Below, one piece after another: positions 54,142 through 61,831 of a stretch of 64,000 nt of DNA. Both the position numbers and the translations under genes were made by a program. This DNA is from a virus, in IMG/VR virus record IMGVR_UViG_3300032562_000004, positions 1 through 64,000 of that record, one strand, 5' to 3'. Under the pieces are notes generated by a model. That model searched no databases. It was not told where the DNA came from and saw nothing but the letters and a program-made list of their open reading frames with translations. Position 1 is the first letter of the stretch. Each line of letters begins with the position of its first letter.

Positions 54142-54149
54142 GATAAATA
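54142..54149 (+). promoter_or_regulatory. Possible late promoter GATAAATA for the curli-like operon
   Basis: GATAAATA lies 70 bp before the first plus-strand gene at 54220 and matches the core of the AGATAAATA elements at 30710 and 45522. The interval 54130-54219 holds no better sigma70-type pair, so late expression of the cassette is the likeliest reading. Confidence 0.35.
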
Positions 54150-54219
54150 ACTTAGTATTGATACTTATACTAATGATTAATTGATTATATAACAATAACC
54201 AATTAAAGTCAATAGTAAA

Positions 54220-54498
54220 ATGGATTTTTTTAAGATAGTTGCCGAATTAGGATTCCCTATGGCTGCCGCTTTTGCAGCTGGGTATTTCGTATTCCTAACT
54301 CTTAAATTCATTCTGGCTGGTGTTACTGGCCAAGTCAAAAGTCTGAGCGGTATTATTACCGCCTTGGACAATCGTGTTAAAACAATGAACCATGATGTTA
54401 TCAGAATTGATACCCTAATGTCGAGCGCTATGGGTGTTAAACCTGATGTTGACCGTATTGCTCGTGCTGATGGTAAAAACGATGCTCGGAGAGATTAA
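54220..54498 (+). CDS. Small membrane protein A of the curli-like cassette, 92 aa
   Basis: MDFFKIVAELGFPMAAAFAA then 'GYFVFLTLKFILAG' is one long membrane helix; the rest is an amphipathic helix ending in a charged tail. It is a clear paralogue of the next protein (M-D-hydrophobic..., G-F-P, G-Y-F, then 'DRV/DNR' helices). No good ribosome binding site is visible before ATG 54220. It could be a holin-like, anchor or chaperone subunit for CsgG/CsgF; family not recognised. Confidence 0.65.
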   Translation: MDFFKIVAELGFPMAAAFAAGYFVFLTLKFILAGVTGQVKSLSGIITALDNRVKTMNHDVIRIDTLMSSAMGVKPDVDRIARADGKNDARRD

Positions 54499-54782
54499 TG
54501 GATTTAGTTGAATTAGTAAACAAATATGGTTTTCCAATTGTTGCAGCTGGCGGCATGGGTTATTTTATATATTATGTTTGGACTTGGGTAACCAAAGAAA
54601 TTAAGCCAGTTTTGAGTGAAGCAAGTACAGTATTAATTGCTTTGATTGACCGTGTTAGAATGTTAGATAATGATTTGATTAGATTGAATCAGAAAATTAA
54701 CATTGTATTAATGATGCGAGAAATTAAAGAAGATGAAAAGACTAAAAAGACTAATACTGATACTGCTAACACTTACCGTTAA
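54498..54782 (+). CDS. Small membrane protein B of the curli-like cassette, 94 aa
   Basis: MDLVELVNKYGFPIVAAGGM followed by 'GYFIYYVWTWVTKEI' repeats the layout of protein A: one membrane helix, then a helical cytosolic or periplasmic part and a Lys/Thr-rich end. ATG 54498 overlaps the upstream stop (TAATG) and has GGAGAG. Tandem duplication with divergence is evident. Confidence 0.65.
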   Translation: MDLVELVNKYGFPIVAAGGMGYFIYYVWTWVTKEIKPVLSEASTVLIALIDRVRMLDNDLIRLNQKINIVLMMREIKEDEKTKKTNTDTANTYR

Positions 54783-55197
54783 TTCAGCATATTCTGCACC
54801 ACTTAACGATTTTACATTCAAATCTCCATCATTCAATGGTAATGGTTATGGCACTTATGTTCTAACCATTCAAAATGAGGAGTATACACGAGCTCAAGCA
54901 ATTCAGCAAGCCCTATTGGCGGCACAACAACAGGCAAAGACTGATGCAGCCAACACACCACTTAATCAATTTCTGGTTAATTTAGAATCTCGTATTTACG
55001 CACAAATTTCACAAAATCTTGCTACAGCAATGTTTGGTTCAGGTTCTTCCACACAAGGTACAATGAACTTCCAAGGCAACACAATCAGTTATGTTAATCA
55101 AGGAAGTAACATTCAATTAACTGTTACCGATAATCTTGGTAACCAAACAGTCATTAATGTACCAATTGGGCAATTTAATATTACAGGACAACCATGA
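54733..55197 (+). CDS. csgF: CsgF-like curli assembly factor, 154 aa
   Basis: A signal peptide (cleavage near 'SAYSA') precedes 'LNDFTFKSPSFNGNGYGTYV', which matches the CsgF N-terminus (F-x-F-x-N-P-x-F-G-G-N) that plugs into the CsgG pore. 'SRIYAQISQNLATAMFG' corresponds to the CsgF middle helix and 'GSNIQLTVTDNLGNQTVINV' to its C-terminal strands ('LQLNVTDRKTGQTSTIQV' in E. coli, from memory). CsgF sits at the outside mouth of CsgG and nucleates curli fibres. The start lies 50 bp inside the upstream gene. Confidence 0.85.
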   Translation: MKRLKRLILILLTLTVNSAYSAPLNDFTFKSPSFNGNGYGTYVLTIQNEEYTRAQAIQQALLAAQQQAKTDAANTPLNQFLVNLESRIYAQISQNLATAMFGSGSSTQGTMNFQGNTISYVNQGSNIQLTVTDNLGNQTVINVPIGQFNITGQP

Positions 55198-56063
55198 AAA
55201 AAGTATTGTTAATTGTTTTGGTTGCAATGTTGTCTGGTTGTGCTATGTTACAAAAAAGTGGACAATTAACGGGAATTGAACATGAACCAAAAGTAGCGGA
55301 AAACAAACTTCAAAAAGAGTTTGATAGAGTTCCACCACCTAAAGGTGCTCATATTACTGTTGCCGTGTATTCATTTCAAGATAAAACCGGCCAACGTAAA
55401 GCAGTATCAACATATGCTAGTTTTAGTACCGCAGTTACGCAAGGCGCTGAACCATTTTTAATTAAAGCATTACAAGATGTTGGTAGTGGTACATGGTTTG
55501 ATGTTGTTGAACGTGTTAATGTGGAAAATTTAATTAAAGAAAGAACCATCATTAAGCAAATGCGTGATGCTTATGAAGGTCCTAAAGCACAACAATTAGC
55601 ACCATTACAGTTCGCTGGTATCATCATGGAAGGTGGTATCATTGGTTATGATTCTAGTACTGAATCTGGTGGACTTGCATATCGTTGGTTAGGCATTGGA
55701 CCACAGACACAATATAGTAAAGATATAGTTACAATCAGTTTACGAGCAGTTAGTGTGAGCTCAGGTAAGGTATTGGCAACGGTAACTGTTACAAAAACAG
55801 TTTACTCAACTGCCGATAGTTTTGCTATGTTAAAGTTCTTTAATGACGGAACTCAGGCCTTTGAGGCTGAATCAGGTTTAACAATCAATGAACCTGGAAC
55901 ATTAGCGGTGAAAGCAACCGTGGAAGCCGCAGTAGTTGAATTAATTAAAGAGGGACAAAGACGAGGTATTTGGGAATTTAGATATCCAATGCCTGAGGAC
56001 AAACCTTGGTGGAAATTTGGAAATGTTCAAACAACACAAAAGGAAGAAAAAAATGAAAAGTAA
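55194..56063 (+). CDS. csgG: CsgG-like outer-membrane curli secretion channel, 289 aa
   Basis: Lipobox 'VAMLSGCAMLQ' (C16) and then 'PPPKGAHITVAVYSFQDKTG' with 'KALQDVGSGTWFDVVERVNV', the hallmark CsgG region, 'FAGIIMEGGIIGYDSSTESG' and 'KDIVTISLRAVSVSSGKVLA' (barrel hairpins). Length (E. coli 277) and order fit the family. CsgG is a nonameric lipoprotein pore that exports curli subunits. Coupled to csgF by ATGA. Confidence 0.92.
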   Translation: MKKVLLIVLVAMLSGCAMLQKSGQLTGIEHEPKVAENKLQKEFDRVPPPKGAHITVAVYSFQDKTGQRKAVSTYASFSTAVTQGAEPFLIKALQDVGSGTWFDVVERVNVENLIKERTIIKQMRDAYEGPKAQQLAPLQFAGIIMEGGIIGYDSSTESGGLAYRWLGIGPQTQYSKDIVTISLRAVSVSSGKVLATVTVTKTVYSTADSFAMLKFFNDGTQAFEAESGLTINEPGTLAVKATVEAAVVELIKEGQRRGIWEFRYPMPEDKPWWKFGNVQTTQKEEKNEK

Positions 56064-56883
56064 ATTAACAAGCTTTGTTATGGGTTTGTTGGTTGCGTTC
56101 AACGTAGCAGCTGCAGACAATAGTATCTATATTGACCAATCCGGAAATAGTTCTACGGTTAGCATTACACAAGATGGTGCAGGTAATATAGTTCAAGGTA
56201 TTCAAGGCACCGGAACAAGTAGCACAACACCAGCAACAATCTATGGTGATAGTAATCAAGTTACTATCAACCAAGTGGGCACAGGAGATACTGTTAGTTT
56301 TGGTATCAAAACATCTGTGGCTAATGGTGTGAGTGGTGGAAACAATTTTAGTTATTCGATTAATGGTAACAACTCTAACGCTGTTATCGATTCAAATAAC
56401 GATGGTCAAGGAGTATCAGCAAGTAATACTGTTACAGTCAATCAAACCGGCAACAATTCCAATGCTAATATTAATGTGTTGGGTTCACAAAATACTGTTA
56501 CCGCTACAACAACAGGTGGTGCTAGCAATAGTGTGGTTTCAACCATAGATGGAAATAGCAACTCACAAACTATTAATGTGTCTGGTGGTGGTTCTAACTC
56601 TATTACTGTTGAACAAGGTATTGGGGGTTCAGCTCTAACCGGTAATGCAACAACGCAAAATAATAGTAATGGTTCTGTAAATTTAACTGTTGTTGGTGCA
56701 AGTAATACTGTGGCAATTGGTCAAACCAGTTCAGGTTCTTATCAAAATACCACAGTTGTTTCTTTAACTGGTTCTAGTGATAATGTAAACATATTACAAA
56801 ATGCATCTGCAGGTAACACTACTGTAAACTTGCAATCTGTTGGTAGTAGTAATACATTTACCATACACAGCAACGCACACTAA
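56053..56883 (+). CDS. Curlin-like repeat protein A, 276 aa
   Basis: ATG 56053 has AAGGAAG; a signal peptide ends near 'NVAAADN'. The mature protein repeats N-x-V/I-x-I-x-Q-x-G-x2-N units ('SIYIDQSGNSSTVSITQDG', 'SNQVTINQVGTGDTVSF', 'SNTVTVNQTGNNSNANINVL'), the curlin amyloid repeat pattern of CsgA/CsgB, but over about 250 residues, roughly twice CsgA. Probable export substrate of the phage-encoded CsgG. Asn, Ser, Thr, Gly and Gln dominate; Cys and charged residues are nearly absent. Confidence 0.8.
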   Translation: MKSKLTSFVMGLLVAFNVAAADNSIYIDQSGNSSTVSITQDGAGNIVQGIQGTGTSSTTPATIYGDSNQVTINQVGTGDTVSFGIKTSVANGVSGGNNFSYSINGNNSNAVIDSNNDGQGVSASNTVTVNQTGNNSNANINVLGSQNTVTATTTGGASNSVVSTIDGNSNSQTINVSGGGSNSITVEQGIGGSALTGNATTQNNSNGSVNLTVVGASNTVAIGQTSSGSYQNTTVVSLTGSSDNVNILQNASAGNTTVNLQSVGSSNTFTIHSNAH

Positions 56884-58001
56884 TGAAACATGTTTTATTA
56901 TGTGTTCTATTGATATCGTTTAATTGTTATGCTGGAATTGGGACAGTCACCGAACAGGTGAATGCTCCCGGTTCTATTGTTCGTTCTAACAAATCAATGC
57001 CAGCTGCCAAAGGTACTGGTGTTGAAATGAACGATACCGTCAATACAACCAAAGGTAAAGTTGAAATAACTTTTGCCGATGATACTAAAGTTGAGGTTAA
57101 CGAAAACTCAAAATTGGTTATTGACGATTTCGTTTATGATGCTAAATCTTCTAAGAATAGTAAATTGGCCATGAAGTTTGCTTCAGGTACAGTTCGTTAT
57201 GCCTCTGGTGCAATCGCACATAACAATCCCAATGCAGTAGCACTCAATACACCATCAACAACTATTGCTGTTCGTGGTACCGATTTCACAGCAACCGTGG
57301 ATGAAGGAGGTGCTTCTACTGTTATTCTTTTACCTTCTTGTCCAAAAGTATGGGTTGATATTGAAAGAGATTGTAAAACAGGAGTAATTGATGTTATTAA
57401 TGATGCTGGTATGGTAACACTCAACAAACCATTTCAAGGCACTAAAGTTGAAAGTCGTAATGTGGCACCAATGAAACCTGTTGTTCTTTCTTTGACTGCT
57501 GATACAATTAACAATCTTCTTATTGTTGCTCCACCAAAAGAATTAAATAAAGATAAACTTGAAAATAAAAGTACTATAGTTATTAATTCTGCCAACATGT
57601 TAGCAGTTAATTTTTTAAAACAAGATTTTTTAAAGAATGAATTGGCAGACCAAACTCCTTATGGTGATAATCCATTAACCAAACCATTACTTGAACAATA
57701 CTTCTTGGCCAACATTTTTGATATTTTAGCGCAGCAGTTACAAGAGGAACAAATGGGTTTATTGGCCAATTTATTAACCCCACAAAATACGTTGTTACCG
57801 GATTATAAAAAAGAAACTGGTGTAGTAACTTCTATTGGCGTATCTACTGTTGGTTTATGTCGTAATGACGGAAGTAATATGCAATGTGTTACTGTACCAA
57901 AGTCAGAAAATGCCACTATATATCAACAACAAGGTTCGGTTGATATTCGTAACAGAGTAAATAGTGGCGGTAACACAATCATAACATTAAAGCAAAATTA
58001 A
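56883..58001 (+). CDS. FecR-domain secreted protein, 372 aa
   Basis: A signal peptide (MKHVLLCVLLISFNCYAGIG) precedes a FecR domain: 'GTGVEMNDTVNTTKGKVEIT', 'FADDTKVEVNENSKLVIDDF', 'MKFASGTVRYASG', then 'NTPSTTIAVRGTDFTATVDE'. In bacteria, such secreted FecR proteins often sit beside CHASE2-cyclase genes or large surface proteins. The remaining 190 residues are helical with a Cys pair. Start overlaps the upstream stop (TAATG). Confidence 0.85.
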   Translation: MKHVLLCVLLISFNCYAGIGTVTEQVNAPGSIVRSNKSMPAAKGTGVEMNDTVNTTKGKVEITFADDTKVEVNENSKLVIDDFVYDAKSSKNSKLAMKFASGTVRYASGAIAHNNPNAVALNTPSTTIAVRGTDFTATVDEGGASTVILLPSCPKVWVDIERDCKTGVIDVINDAGMVTLNKPFQGTKVESRNVAPMKPVVLSLTADTINNLLIVAPPKELNKDKLENKSTIVINSANMLAVNFLKQDFLKNELADQTPYGDNPLTKPLLEQYFLANIFDILAQQLQEEQMGLLANLLTPQNTLLPDYKKETGVVTSIGVSTVGLCRNDGSNMQCVTVPKSENATIYQQQGSVDIRNRVNSGGNTIITLKQN

Positions 58002-58588
58002 TGAAATTTTTAATTATCCTTTTTTTAATATCAGGCCTTGGACAATGTTCATACATCAAAGCCGCAGATAATACCATTGCAATAGACCAAGTTGGTAGTA
58101 ATAATCAATACACAATTTCACAAGATTATACAGGAAATTCTGTTGATATTTCGATTGGAAAATCATCAGCAAGCGATAATAATGTTATCGGAATTACACA
58201 AGGTGGATTTGGTCAACAAACATCAAGTATTAAAATACCTGGTGGCATTAATAATACCGTTTCAATTACTCAAAACGGAGTAGGTAATATGGTTGCAACA
58301 GTAGATAATATGAATGGTTCTGCAAACAATATTACTATTAATCAGGGTGGGGCAAGTAACAATACAATGAACATTATTGGTGGTACAGGAACAACAAACA
58401 ATGCAAATACGATTAATACAACTCAATTCGGAAATGCAGGTGCAGATAAATCCTTCACACTAAATATGAATGGTACAAATGGTGCCAATGTTACAGTACA
58501 ACAAACGAATCCAACTCAATCAAATACCGGTTCAATGAGTATTCAATGTTACACCAATTGTGGTAGTTATAGTTACATAAGAAACTAA
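58001..58588 (+). CDS. Curlin-like repeat protein B, 195 aa
   Basis: Signal peptide (cleavage near 'IKAADN'), then curlin-type units 'NTIAIDQVGSNNQYTISQ', 'NNVIGITQGGFGQQ', 'NNTVSITQNGVGN', 'NNITINQGGASNN'. The C-terminus has two Cys ('QCYTNCGSY'). The mature start (ADN-T/S-I-x-I-D-Q) is the same as in protein A, so both are related; by analogy one may be a nucleator (CsgB-like) and the other the fibre subunit. TAATG coupling to fecR. Confidence 0.75.
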   Translation: MKFLIILFLISGLGQCSYIKAADNTIAIDQVGSNNQYTISQDYTGNSVDISIGKSSASDNNVIGITQGGFGQQTSSIKIPGGINNTVSITQNGVGNMVATVDNMNGSANNITINQGGASNNTMNIIGGTGTTNNANTINTTQFGNAGADKSFTLNMNGTNGANVTVQQTNPTQSNTGSMSIQCYTNCGSYSYIRN

Positions 58589-58589
58589 T

Positions 58590-60602
58590 ATGAAAATACT
58601 GAAGAAATTATTACTCTCTCCATGGACAGCAATATTAACACTCATATTATTGGTATGTATTCGTGTATCAGATCCTTCATTTGTTGAGTCGGTAAGACTT
58701 CGTTATTTTGATACTGTTATATCTTCAAAATCTATTACCACATCACAAATAAGTGTTGTGAATATTGATGATTTTACAATAGAAAAAAAAGGTCAATTTC
58801 CTTTTCCTAGAGGACAATATGCAAAAATTATTCAAGATTTGTATCAACGTAATGCTGGTCTTGTTGTGTTTAATGTTTTCATGCCTGATAGCGATAGGTT
58901 TTTTCAGGATAGTATATTGGCTAACACACTCAGGAAATATCCAGTAGTTTTACCACAAATTGGTTCTACCGATAAACCCAATAAAATAATTCCTTTTAGA
59001 CCAGGTGTTTCAGTAATCGGAGAAGGCAGTGCAGGCGTTATATATAATTCTATCCAACCTAATGTGAAAGAATTAAATGAGACGGCTGCTGGCATTGGCA
59101 TTGTTAATACTCTCCCCGAAATTGATGGCGTCACCAGACGAGTGCCTATGGTGGTACAATCCGGTAACGGCTTGCTTTACCCTGCAATCTCTCTTGAATC
59201 CCTTCGAGTTGCCTCTGGAGACCCAAGTTTTCAAATCAAACTCGGAGAAACAGGAATACAAGCCCTCAGAATTCCTAAATTTGGAAAAATCACAACCGAC
59301 CCAATTGGAAGGATATGGGTCGATTGGTCCAGTAAACCCACAGAATATTCCTTCTCCAACTTACCAAAGGATTTTGGAGGTTCCATCGTCATCGTTGGAC
59401 TCACAGCAAAAGGCCTCAACAATCCGGTTGCAACTTCAGTCGGTGCCGTCTATCCTCATTACCTACAAGCAGCAGTTCTAGACACCTTAATCTCAGGTAC
59501 AAACATCTCCAGACCAGACTGGTCAGACGGAGCAGAGTTATTATACACAATTGCACTTTGTATAATAGCAATTTTCTTTACAAGGTATACACATGGTTAC
59601 ATCGCAATCATCATTATGGGAATTGCATCCTATGTACTTGGCCATGAATCATTCAATCGATATAATTACTTACTTGATGTTACTTTCCCACTTCTCACCA
59701 TTACTCTTGTTTTCGCACATGGCTACGTTATCAAATTCCTGTCGGAATTAAAACAAAAACTCCAAATTAAAAAACAATTTGGAACATATTTAAGTCCCGC
59801 TTTAGTAGAAAAACTCCAAAAAAATCCAGAATTGTTGGTTCTTGGTGGAGAATCCAGAGAACTTTCTATTATGTTTACTGATGTTCGTGGTTTCACAACA
59901 ATTTCAGAACATTATGGTAAAGATGTGCAAGGTTTAACTAAGATTATGAATCGTTATATGACTGCAATGACCGCAAAGATTATTGAAAATAACGGCACTC
60001 TGGATAAGTACATTGGAGATGCTCAGATGGCATTTTGGAACGCACCTCTAGATGAACCTAATCATGCTAAGATGGCTGTGAAAACTGCAATACAAATGAT
60101 GGAGAATTTAGATGAATTCAATAATGAAATTACTAAAGAGGGCATCCCAGCTTTTGGCATGGGTCTTGGCATTAATACTGGTACCGTTGTTGTTGGCAAT
60201 ATGGGTAGTAGCCAGCGTTTCGATTATACTTGTCTTGGAGATTCTGTTAATCTTGCATCCCGGCTTGAAGGTCAAAGTAAACCGTATGGTGTCAGAATGG
60301 TCCTCGGACCTGATACAGCTCTTCAAGTAAAAGATGAATATCCTGTTATTGAGTTAGATTGTATTGCTGTTAAAGGTAAAAAAGAAGGTGTGAAAATATT
60401 TACACTAGGCAAATCTAACTGGAAACATGAAGATTACCTTGATGCTTATTACACAGGTGATTGGGATAAAGCGATAGGTCATTGTAAGACCTTGATTGAA
60501 GAAGGTGGAGAGTTAAAACAATACTACGAAAATATGTTGGAAAGACTACAAGAAGGAGTTCCATCCGATTGGGATGGAACCTATAGAGCAACTTCTAAGT
60601 AA
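58590..60602 (+). CDS. CHASE2 sensor-class III adenylate cyclase, 670 aa
   Basis: A first membrane helix (about residues 7-27) leads to a periplasmic CHASE2 domain ('ISVVNIDDFTIEKKGQFPFP', 'VVLPQI', 'SGTNISRPDWSDGAELL'), then three helices (about 310-385) and a cyclase domain from about 420. Catalytic residues are all visible: metal Asp D431 ('MFTDVRGFTT') and D477 ('KYIGDAQMAFW'), adenine-selecting K473 and T547 ('DYTCLGDSVN'), transition-state N554 and R558 ('NLASRLEG'). K plus T indicates ATP, hence cAMP. A full-length sensor cyclase in a phage is very unusual. Confidence 0.93.
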   Translation: MKILKKLLLSPWTAILTLILLVCIRVSDPSFVESVRLRYFDTVISSKSITTSQISVVNIDDFTIEKKGQFPFPRGQYAKIIQDLYQRNAGLVVFNVFMPDSDRFFQDSILANTLRKYPVVLPQIGSTDKPNKIIPFRPGVSVIGEGSAGVIYNSIQPNVKELNETAAGIGIVNTLPEIDGVTRRVPMVVQSGNGLLYPAISLESLRVASGDPSFQIKLGETGIQALRIPKFGKITTDPIGRIWVDWSSKPTEYSFSNLPKDFGGSIVIVGLTAKGLNNPVATSVGAVYPHYLQAAVLDTLISGTNISRPDWSDGAELLYTIALCIIAIFFTRYTHGYIAIIIMGIASYVLGHESFNRYNYLLDVTFPLLTITLVFAHGYVIKFLSELKQKLQIKKQFGTYLSPALVEKLQKNPELLVLGGESRELSIMFTDVRGFTTISEHYGKDVQGLTKIMNRYMTAMTAKIIENNGTLDKYIGDAQMAFWNAPLDEPNHAKMAVKTAIQMMENLDEFNNEITKEGIPAFGMGLGINTGTVVVGNMGSSQRFDYTCLGDSVNLASRLEGQSKPYGVRMVLGPDTALQVKDEYPVIELDCIAVKGKKEGVKIFTLGKSNWKHEDYLDAYYTGDWDKAIGHCKTLIEEGGELKQYYENMLERLQEGVPSDWDGTYRATSK

Positions 60603-60803
60603 TTAAGCGTAAGTATCAGCTTCTACGGCACCAGCAGAATGAATTATTTCACCATCAAGGTCATAAACCTTAACAGTATGTGAATTTAAACTGTTGGCAA
60701 AACCAATAGCATCTAATGAAGATGTAAAGATATTTTCTAGTGTTAATAGTTCGCCATTATACCAATGTTGGCTAACTACTTTGTGGTGGTGATGCTTGCT
60801 CAT
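60603..60803 (-). CDS. Conserved small phage protein, 66 aa
   Basis: MSKHHHHKVVSQHWYNGELL with 'SHTVKVYDLDGEIIHSAG' is a pattern of small proteins in aquatic phages (His cluster, then 'KVYD-DG'). Its stop touches the stop of the cyclase gene on the other strand, so the two transcripts converge with no spacer. Confidence 0.55.
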   Translation of the reverse strand: MSKHHHHKVVSQHWYNGELLTLENIFTSSLDAIGFANSLNSHTVKVYDLDGEIIHSAGAVEADTYA

Positions 60804-60811
60804 TTTTTCTC

Positions 60812-61831
60812 CTAAAGAAAGTATTTTGTCCAGATTTTTCTGGTATTATTTGTATATTTTTTCAAATTTCGTTGATTCAAAAAAACACTTAATCTAGGGT
60901 ATTTATAAGCCCTCAAAAGTGCCTCACAAATATCTTCACTATCTGTACAATCCGCATTGATAAATGAGGTTGACCATGGAATTTCAGTACTTCCAATCAA
61001 AGGAACACCTTGAGAAGTTAGGTCAGCACCCACAATGTTAAAAGTTTCTGAGAAATTACATTGCATACCAATGTCCATTTGAGAACACAACTGTAAAAAT
61101 TCTTCTCTAGGAGTCCATTGATGATTGATTAATGTATGGCCTCTTCCATAGATTTGCTGAAATAATCCTTTGAGATTATTGATATTGGCATTACCATTCA
61201 TTTCAATACGACCAGCATTTACATGGAATCGTAATTTCTTTCCAACTCTTTCAGCAAATTCAATAGCAGCAAATGCTTGCACTAAATGATTTTTTAATGG
61301 ACGAATTGCACCAAAACAAGATACATCAACCCATTCTTTATCTTTGTTGAATTGTTTTGTTTTGTATTCTTGTGGATAAAAATTAGGTAAATAAATTACT
61401 TTATCTGTACCCAAATAGAGTTGAATTTCTCTCAACATTCTAGGTGCATTACAAGCAATCTTAACATTCTTAAATGTTCTATAATCGCCTAGCCAATCCA
61501 TGGCCATTCCTTCTCCTGCCATAAAAGGCATTTCAGAATGTAAACGAACAATCCATTGAACACTTGGATGTAACTTTTGAAGAATGGAGAATTTAGTAGG
61601 AACAACCCATAGTGCCTCAATGATTACATGAGTGGGTTTGTGTTTAGATACAAGTCTATCGATACAATTGTTATCAACAGCAACTTCAAGAACAGAATTA
61701 AATCCTGCTTCAACCAACATATCATTCATAAATTTGGCAGAGTTATATAAACCTGTACTCAAACCAATGTGTGAATGTACTTTAGCGTTGTAATCTTCTC
61801 TGCGTTTTAGTATGAATAATATTTTGGACAT
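60812..61831 (-). CDS. GT-B (GT4-like) glycosyltransferase, 339 aa
   Basis: 'PLKNHLVQAFAAIEFAERVG' begins the C-terminal donor domain, and 'MQCNFSETFNIVGADLTSQG' carries the E-x7-E-like donor site with 'VPLIGSTEIPW'. N-terminal Rossmann half begins 'KILFILKRREDYNAKV'. Probably modifies a surface or virion glycan. A CATAAATA late-like box lies 36 bp upstream. Confidence 0.7.
   Translation of the reverse strand: MSKILFILKRREDYNAKVHSHIGLSTGLYNSAKFMNDMLVEAGFNSVLEVAVDNNCIDRLVSKHKPTHVIIEALWVVPTKFSILQKLHPSVQWIVRLHSEMPFMAGEGMAMDWLGDYRTFKNVKIACNAPRMLREIQLYLGTDKVIYLPNFYPQEYKTKQFNKDKEWVDVSCFGAIRPLKNHLVQAFAAIEFAERVGKKLRFHVNAGRIEMNGNANINNLKGLFQQIYGRGHTLINHQWTPREEFLQLCSQMDIGMQCNFSETFNIVGADLTSQGVPLIGSTEIPWSTSFINADCTDSEDICEALLRAYKYPRLSVFLNQRNLKKYTNNTRKIWTKYFL

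Follow-up and report, generated by a model that had tools for sequence, protein, structure and literature searches.

The 64,000-nucleotide stretch of viral DNA analyzed here (the window; positions 1 to 64,000 of IMG/VR virus record IMGVR_UViG_3300032562_000004) contains at 54220-60602 an eight-gene locus that is read, with somewhat better than even confidence, as a phage type VIII secretion (curli) module, i.e., a late amyloid-export cassette that would coat or aggregate infected cells and tune their cyclic AMP (cAMP). By sequence, the locus combines a CsgG pore and CsgF with two curlin-like substrates, a FecR-domain protein, and a cyclase, all behind a single late-promoter-like element. An earlier note on this DNA had described eight packed plus-strand genes amid minus-strand core genes, and all eight open reading frames (ORFs) are present at that place and on that strand, flanked by core genes on the minus strand. 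The names proposed there (two paralogous membrane proteins, CsgF, CsgG, a curlin-like pair, FecR, and a CHASE2 cyclase) agree with the Pfam, profile, and phrog matches. The features of the locus are as follows:

54142..54149 (+): T4-type late-promoter-like -10 element GATAAATA; core ATAAATA at 54143-54149, 78 bp 5' of the first gene
54184..54212 (-): sigma-70-type promoter-like site TTGACT-17-TATAAT, 11/12 matches; directed away from the module, towards the side of the 125-amino-acid (aa) protein and DNA polymerase
54220..54498 (+): TMa, 92-aa membrane protein, paralogue of TMb (phrog_18771, 7e-35)
54498..54782 (+): TMb, 94-aa membrane protein (phrog_18771)
54733..55197 (+): CsgF-like protein with signal peptide (PF10614, 1.1e-15)
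55194..56063 (+): CsgG-like outer-membrane lipoprotein pore with lipobox LSGC (Cys16) (PF03783, 1.3e-45)
56053..56883 (+): curlin-like repeat protein A with signal peptide (PF07012, 0.0013; profile matches to 8c50 and 8enq)
56883..58001 (+): exported FecR-domain protein with signal peptide (PF04773, 4.8e-11; AlphaFold2 (AF2) model; Foldseek; conservation of the C-terminus)
58001..58588 (+): curlin-like repeat protein B with signal peptide and a C-terminal Cys-pair cap (Cys183, Cys187) (PF07012, 0.0016; AF2 model)
58590..60602 (+): CHASE2-class III adenylate cyclase with catalytic residues present (PF05226, 5.1e-37; PF00211, 6.1e-21)

The genes overlap by 1 bp (TMa/TMb, at 54498), 50 bp (TMb/CsgF), 4 bp (CsgF/CsgG), 11 bp (CsgG/curlin A, the ATG of curlin A lying at 56053), 1 bp (curlin A/FecR, at 56883), and 1 bp (FecR/curlin B, at 58001), and a 1-bp gap separates curlin B from the cyclase. 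The Pfam matches of CsgF, CsgG, FecR, CHASE2, and the cyclase domain all exceed the curated cut-offs. The window is part of a 235,812-bp record (36% guanine plus cytosine (GC); 31 transfer RNA genes and two transfer-messenger RNAs (tmRNAs) predicted) in which 32 of the 42 core proteins of phage Melnitz that were tested are matched, including gp23 (65% identity), terminase (53%), and DNA polymerase (47%). By this gene content the record is a large T4-like phage, in keeping with the earlier description of the genes as phage-borne. An assembly chimera as the source of the locus was ruled out by the identical gene order in cultured isolates and in many independent contigs.

Late promoters of T4 carry the -10 element TATAAATA. 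In the window, GATAAATA stands at -78 from the first module gene, and the motif is otherwise depleted, with 14 occurrences observed versus 38 expected; TATAAAT has been used as a late-promoter motif in earlier work (PMC9004378). Of 107 distinct module heads, 99 have the shorter core TAAATA no more than 100 bp upstream; the heads are related rather than independent, so that fewer separate events are represented than these counts suggest. The core is found regardless of head type, whether the transmembrane (TM) pair leads (51/54), csgF leads (24/28), or csgF follows a small gene resembling the cyclase tail (24/25). The control fractions were 0.04 in random windows and 0.26 upstream of other ORFs, and 5 of 74 bacterial csgF genes carried the core. 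In Melnitz, TAAATA is located at 6 of 16 late genes, at none of 16 early genes, and at the module head. A sigma-70 promoter scan of the region returned a total number of sites at chance level. Given the frequency of the core at module heads compared with 4% of random windows, the module is very probably expressed late, and module transcripts have been detected in metatranscriptomes (PMC9599517).

The CsgG profile matches the solved CsgG structure 3x2r (8e-63), and inspection of the N-termini together with hydropathy indicates that CsgF, CsgG, the two curlins, and the FecR protein all carry signal peptides. The family profile of curlin A matches the solved curlins 8c50 (5.6e-28) and 8enq (3e-6). 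The AF2 model of curlin B consists of repeated beta-strand pairs, and its conserved C-terminus contains a Cys pair in nearly all members (L013 and L031 lack the pair and look truncated, and the second Cys is shifted in L032). Both proteins are regarded as curlin-like substrates that may form amyloid fibers.

In the AF2 model of the FecR protein, a FecR fold (residues about 20-190) is followed by a disordered linker and a confidently modeled C-terminal beta domain (about 310-372). Foldseek matches the N-terminal part to FecR-like anti-sigma factor and PupR signaling domains. The FecR domain directly follows the signal peptide, with no other hydrophobic segment, and the N-terminal cytoplasmic anti-sigma domain and transmembrane helix typical of FecR sigma-factor regulators are not present in the protein. 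Because the anti-sigma domain is missing, a reading of this protein as an iron regulator is unsupported. Its C-terminal end is strongly conserved among phages; that end and the confident beta domain had suggested a curlin repeat, which is not claimed here since the profile-profile probability is only ~1%.

The cyclase retains the catalytic residues D431, K473, D477, T547, N554, and R558, and thus has the two metal-binding Asp residues, the substrate Lys, and the transition-state Asn and Arg expected of class III enzymes. It is predicted to be a membrane-anchored class III adenylate cyclase with a CHASE2 sensor. The phage cyclases fall into two classes, one that keeps the Asn and has Thr or Ser at the adenine position, and one in which Ser replaces the Asn and Asp occupies the adenine position. 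No cyclic-nucleotide-binding (cAMP receptor) domain was found in the 235.8-kb record. At more than 30 loci in addition to L019:5995-6315 and L085:8174-8473, the TM pair is replaced by a 94-136 aa homolog of the C-terminal tail of the cyclase, encoded 5' of csgF, for which no convincing match was obtained in PHROGs, Pfam, or INPHARED; the late-promoter core usually stands between this gene and csgF.

The two small proteins at the head of the module, TMa and TMb, are paralogs that both belong to phrog_18771, an unnamed phage family, and on inspection have a single N-terminal hydrophobic helix followed by a helical, partly charged tail. The TMb core LIALIDRIRMLDNDLIRL is nearly invariant across TMb members. 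Genes at the equivalent position in phages HTVC008M and Melnitz match TMa and TMb; in the published module, the one or two genes preceding csgF are labeled 'histidine kinase' (PMC9599517). That assignment was dismissed for proteins of 92 and 94 aa in which no Pfam kinase domain was found, the 235.8-kb record likewise containing no HATPase_c domain, and the label is read here as a probable misannotation of the published family and not as a peculiarity of the member in the window. Matches to phrog_4898, a holin family, were obtained for 13 of the 20 members of TMa/TMb (E<=0.05; best 3.9e-6), although the match spans only 18 residues in the window protein, and Pfam YvrJ is matched weakly by two members (best 0.0055). 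The nearest named relative thus appears to be a holin family, with a weak family resemblance, and the pair is possibly a holin-like accessory linked to the module. Since the pair lies on the opposite strand in some relatives, TMa and TMb were also considered as unrelated core genes; this was dismissed on finding csg genes in 34 of the 38 long loci retrieved through TMb (just downstream, or nearby on the opposite strand), a sample biased towards the closest relatives of TMb. In several relatives (e.g., L041:4905-5093, L064:16048-16233, L088:15462-15653), a small conserved protein (~60-75 aa, ..DYTWDL..DPLVKF) is encoded between TMa and TMb.

The presence of csgG and csgF in marine T4-like phages, mentioned in the earlier note, is confirmed: cultured Melnitz (MZ577097) and HTVC008M (NC_020484) have the gene order of the window. 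The accompanying suggestion that an operon also carrying substrates, FecR, and a sensor cyclase was undescribed does not stand, as Wittmers et al. (2022; PMC9599517) reported the order HK-csgF-csgG-csgA/B-FecR-csgA/B-cyclase in podo- and myovirus pelagiphages with worldwide marine occurrence, and listed superinfection defense and aggregation among its possible roles. Before that, Zaragoza-Solas et al. (2020; PMC7029224) had reported a csgF/csgG cluster and proposed 'sibling capture', and Buchholz et al. (2022; PMC9004378) have proposed that CsgG acts as a lysis pore analogous to a pinholin. A CsgG query of IMG/VR returned 165 relatives; among the best 80, which were read, the genes keep their order, most of the incomplete sets lie at contig ends, and module-bearing contigs reach 356,865 bp. 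The same order is seen in Melnitz, in HTVC008M, and in about 80 viral contigs, many of them from IMG/VR, which contradicts the possibility, raised in the earlier note, that the eight genes never occur together in related phages. Lake phages also contain the module, and close relatives of the window phage include lake contigs, whereas the freshwater SAR11 myophages of an earlier survey lacked it (PMC7029224). Compared with the pelagiphage module of HTVC008M and Melnitz, the window has the identical order, from one or two small genes through the cyclase, with CsgG 41-44% and the cyclase 38-40% identical, but the window phage is a larger T4-like phage, its small 'HK' genes encode no kinase domain, and its module adjoins DNA polymerase, whereas that of Melnitz adjoins the single-stranded DNA-binding protein gene. 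As in bacterial csg operons, CsgF, CsgG, and curlin repeats are adjacent; unlike those operons, the window module includes FecR and a CHASE2 cyclase, and no CsgE was found. The gene set in ocean phages was thus already known; the promoter, the occurrence in lakes, a bacterial relative of the complete gene set, and the re-reading of the two small genes are new.

That bacterial relative is L093, located on a 705-kb contig of a metagenome-assembled genome (MAG) of Hyphomonas sp. TMED17 with ordinary bacterial genes on both sides. In a profile scan of 80 CsgG loci from bacterial genomes, only L093 contained both FecR and cyclase genes with the curli genes; L107, a 3-kb phage-like MAG contig, showed FecR only, and the contig ends there. 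The order in L093 is csgF-csgG-curlin-FecR-CHASE2 cyclase, as in the phage module, and its cyclase is 42% identical to that of the window, exceeding the values for Melnitz and HTVC008M, but the TM pair, the second curlin, and the late-promoter element are absent. In the CsgG tree, L093 is sister to all phage sequences (support 100/99), which form a group with two phage-like MAG contigs (99/91). In the cyclase tree, L093 groups with the phages (99/100), separate from 20 other bacterial cyclases, and its position among the phages is less resolved. A recent phage-to-bacterium transfer is disfavored by the GC content of L093 (50.5%), which together with GC at third codon positions resembles the flanks, and by its placement outside the phages in the CsgG tree. 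These data suggest that L093 is an old bacterial relative of the module, either donor or ancient recipient. FecR and the cyclase have been stated to lie outside bacterial T8SS (type VIII secretion system) operons (Wittmers et al., PMC9599517), to which L093, a locus from a MAG, is a counterexample. No further bacterial example of comparable strength was found with a FecR query among 384 other Alphaproteobacteria (an even draw) or with a cyclase query among the other 104 genomes of the L093 family. Short contigs with phage-type module genes in Pirellulales and Pelagibacter MAGs (L094, L107, L173) are probably phage contigs binned with bacteria.

The pairing of FecR with CHASE2 cyclases in bacteria, also mentioned in the earlier note, was recovered: of the 48 alphaproteobacterial genomes that have both matches, 13 have them no more than 3 kb apart. 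A described example is SMc02177/CyaD1 of S. meliloti, a FecR-domain protein and a receptor-like CHASE2 cyclase (PMC5498481), which resembles the window module in having the cyclase near a FecR-domain protein but differs in that no curli genes are described with it and transcription of the FecR gene is controlled by cAMP-Clr (PMC5498481). Because of this frequency of close pairing, the module may have arisen by the joining of a curli operon to a FecR/CHASE2-cyclase pair.

Outside the module, on its 3' side, two proteins are encoded at window positions 60603-61831 (-), one of 66 aa and the other of 339 aa and possibly glycosyltransferase-like; both are conserved next to the TM pair in L060 and L063. 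The same record contains a second DNA polymerase B-like ORF (G000:C1:199634-202294), a second gp44-like ORF (229891-230811), and the two predicted tmRNAs, which could be real extra copies or the result of a joined assembly. A 1.5-kb record named as a Salmonella phage (OR851715.1) bears csgG and is probably host sequence.

Under the favored reading as a curli export module, the host Sec system would export the module proteins late in infection, CsgG and CsgF in the outer membrane would pass the curlin-like proteins outward, and these would assemble into amyloid on the dying cell. Instead of regulating iron, the FecR protein would serve as a periplasmic or surface scaffold. The cyclase would sense the state of the envelope through CHASE2 and raise cAMP, with host receptors as the presumed targets, since the phage record yielded none. 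The phage would most likely benefit from a sticky coat by which cells or debris are kept together near the released virions, the 'sibling capture' published by others. Several observations weigh against this reading. Melnitz-infected cultures showed no clumping (PMC9004378), and the single-sequence curlin repeats fall short of the Pfam cut-off (19.1 and 18.8 bits for A and B versus 20.7, i.e., just below). A fold search with the curlin B model gave no significant structural match. No CsgE gate was found in the 235.8-kb record, which may be incomplete, and export may therefore be leaky. The transition-state Asn is replaced by Ser, with Asp at the adenine position, in about half of the phage cyclases examined (e.g., L002, L034, L074), so that cyclase activity may be dispensable in some modules. 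Finally, the contrast in TAAATA between late and early genes of the window phage itself is weak (3/14 versus 2/14).

Among the alternatives, a lysis-timing device, in which CsgG or TMa/TMb would permeabilize the envelope late while the other genes regulate or support the process, is possible but doubtful. The late-promoter core at the module head, the tight linkage of the TM pair to the module, and the phrog_4898 matches of 13 of 20 pair members would fit such a role, but the lipoprotein CsgG belongs to the outer rather than the inner membrane, as established for the family, the holin match covers 18 residues in the window protein, the YvrJ match is weak (2/20), and the operon retains CsgF and two curlin-like substrates. 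A broader proposal, that the holin-like pair, the ungated pore, two curlins (the second Cys-capped), a FecR scaffold at the surface, and a cyclase that senses the envelope form one late release-and-retention device, timing lysis and holding the surroundings of the lysed cell as a fiber net for progeny after assembly in an alphaproteobacterial chromosome (L093-like) before phage uptake, is fairly unlikely in its entirety. The surface location of the module products, and the published argument that curli-based aggregates limit phage penetration (PMC9599517), would favor a barrier in which an amyloid coat or a change in cAMP excludes other phages, as raised in the earlier note and in PMC9599517; this is unlikely given that TAAATA at 99 of 107 heads implies that the products are made late, at a stage when keeping other phages out would help least. 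Least probable is a pore for nutrient uptake, in which CsgG without its CsgE gate would admit larger molecules to the periplasm (PMC7029224, PMC9599517). The failure to find CsgE in the 235.8-kb record is consistent with such a pore, yet it would need neither CsgF nor two curlin substrates nor a late promoter, and TAAATA is present at the module head.

Phage-driven amyloid secretion by the host is a recognized theme among aquatic viruses that still awaits a functional explanation, and the lake loci take the module beyond the ocean. The late-promoter evidence makes the competing ideas about its function testable predictions of timing. The annotation of small 'kinases' of the TMa/TMb type should probably be revised, because they are given a signaling role in the published model and no such domain is present here. 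The L093 operon is a bacterial counterpart amenable to comparative work and points to a candidate lineage from which the module may have come.

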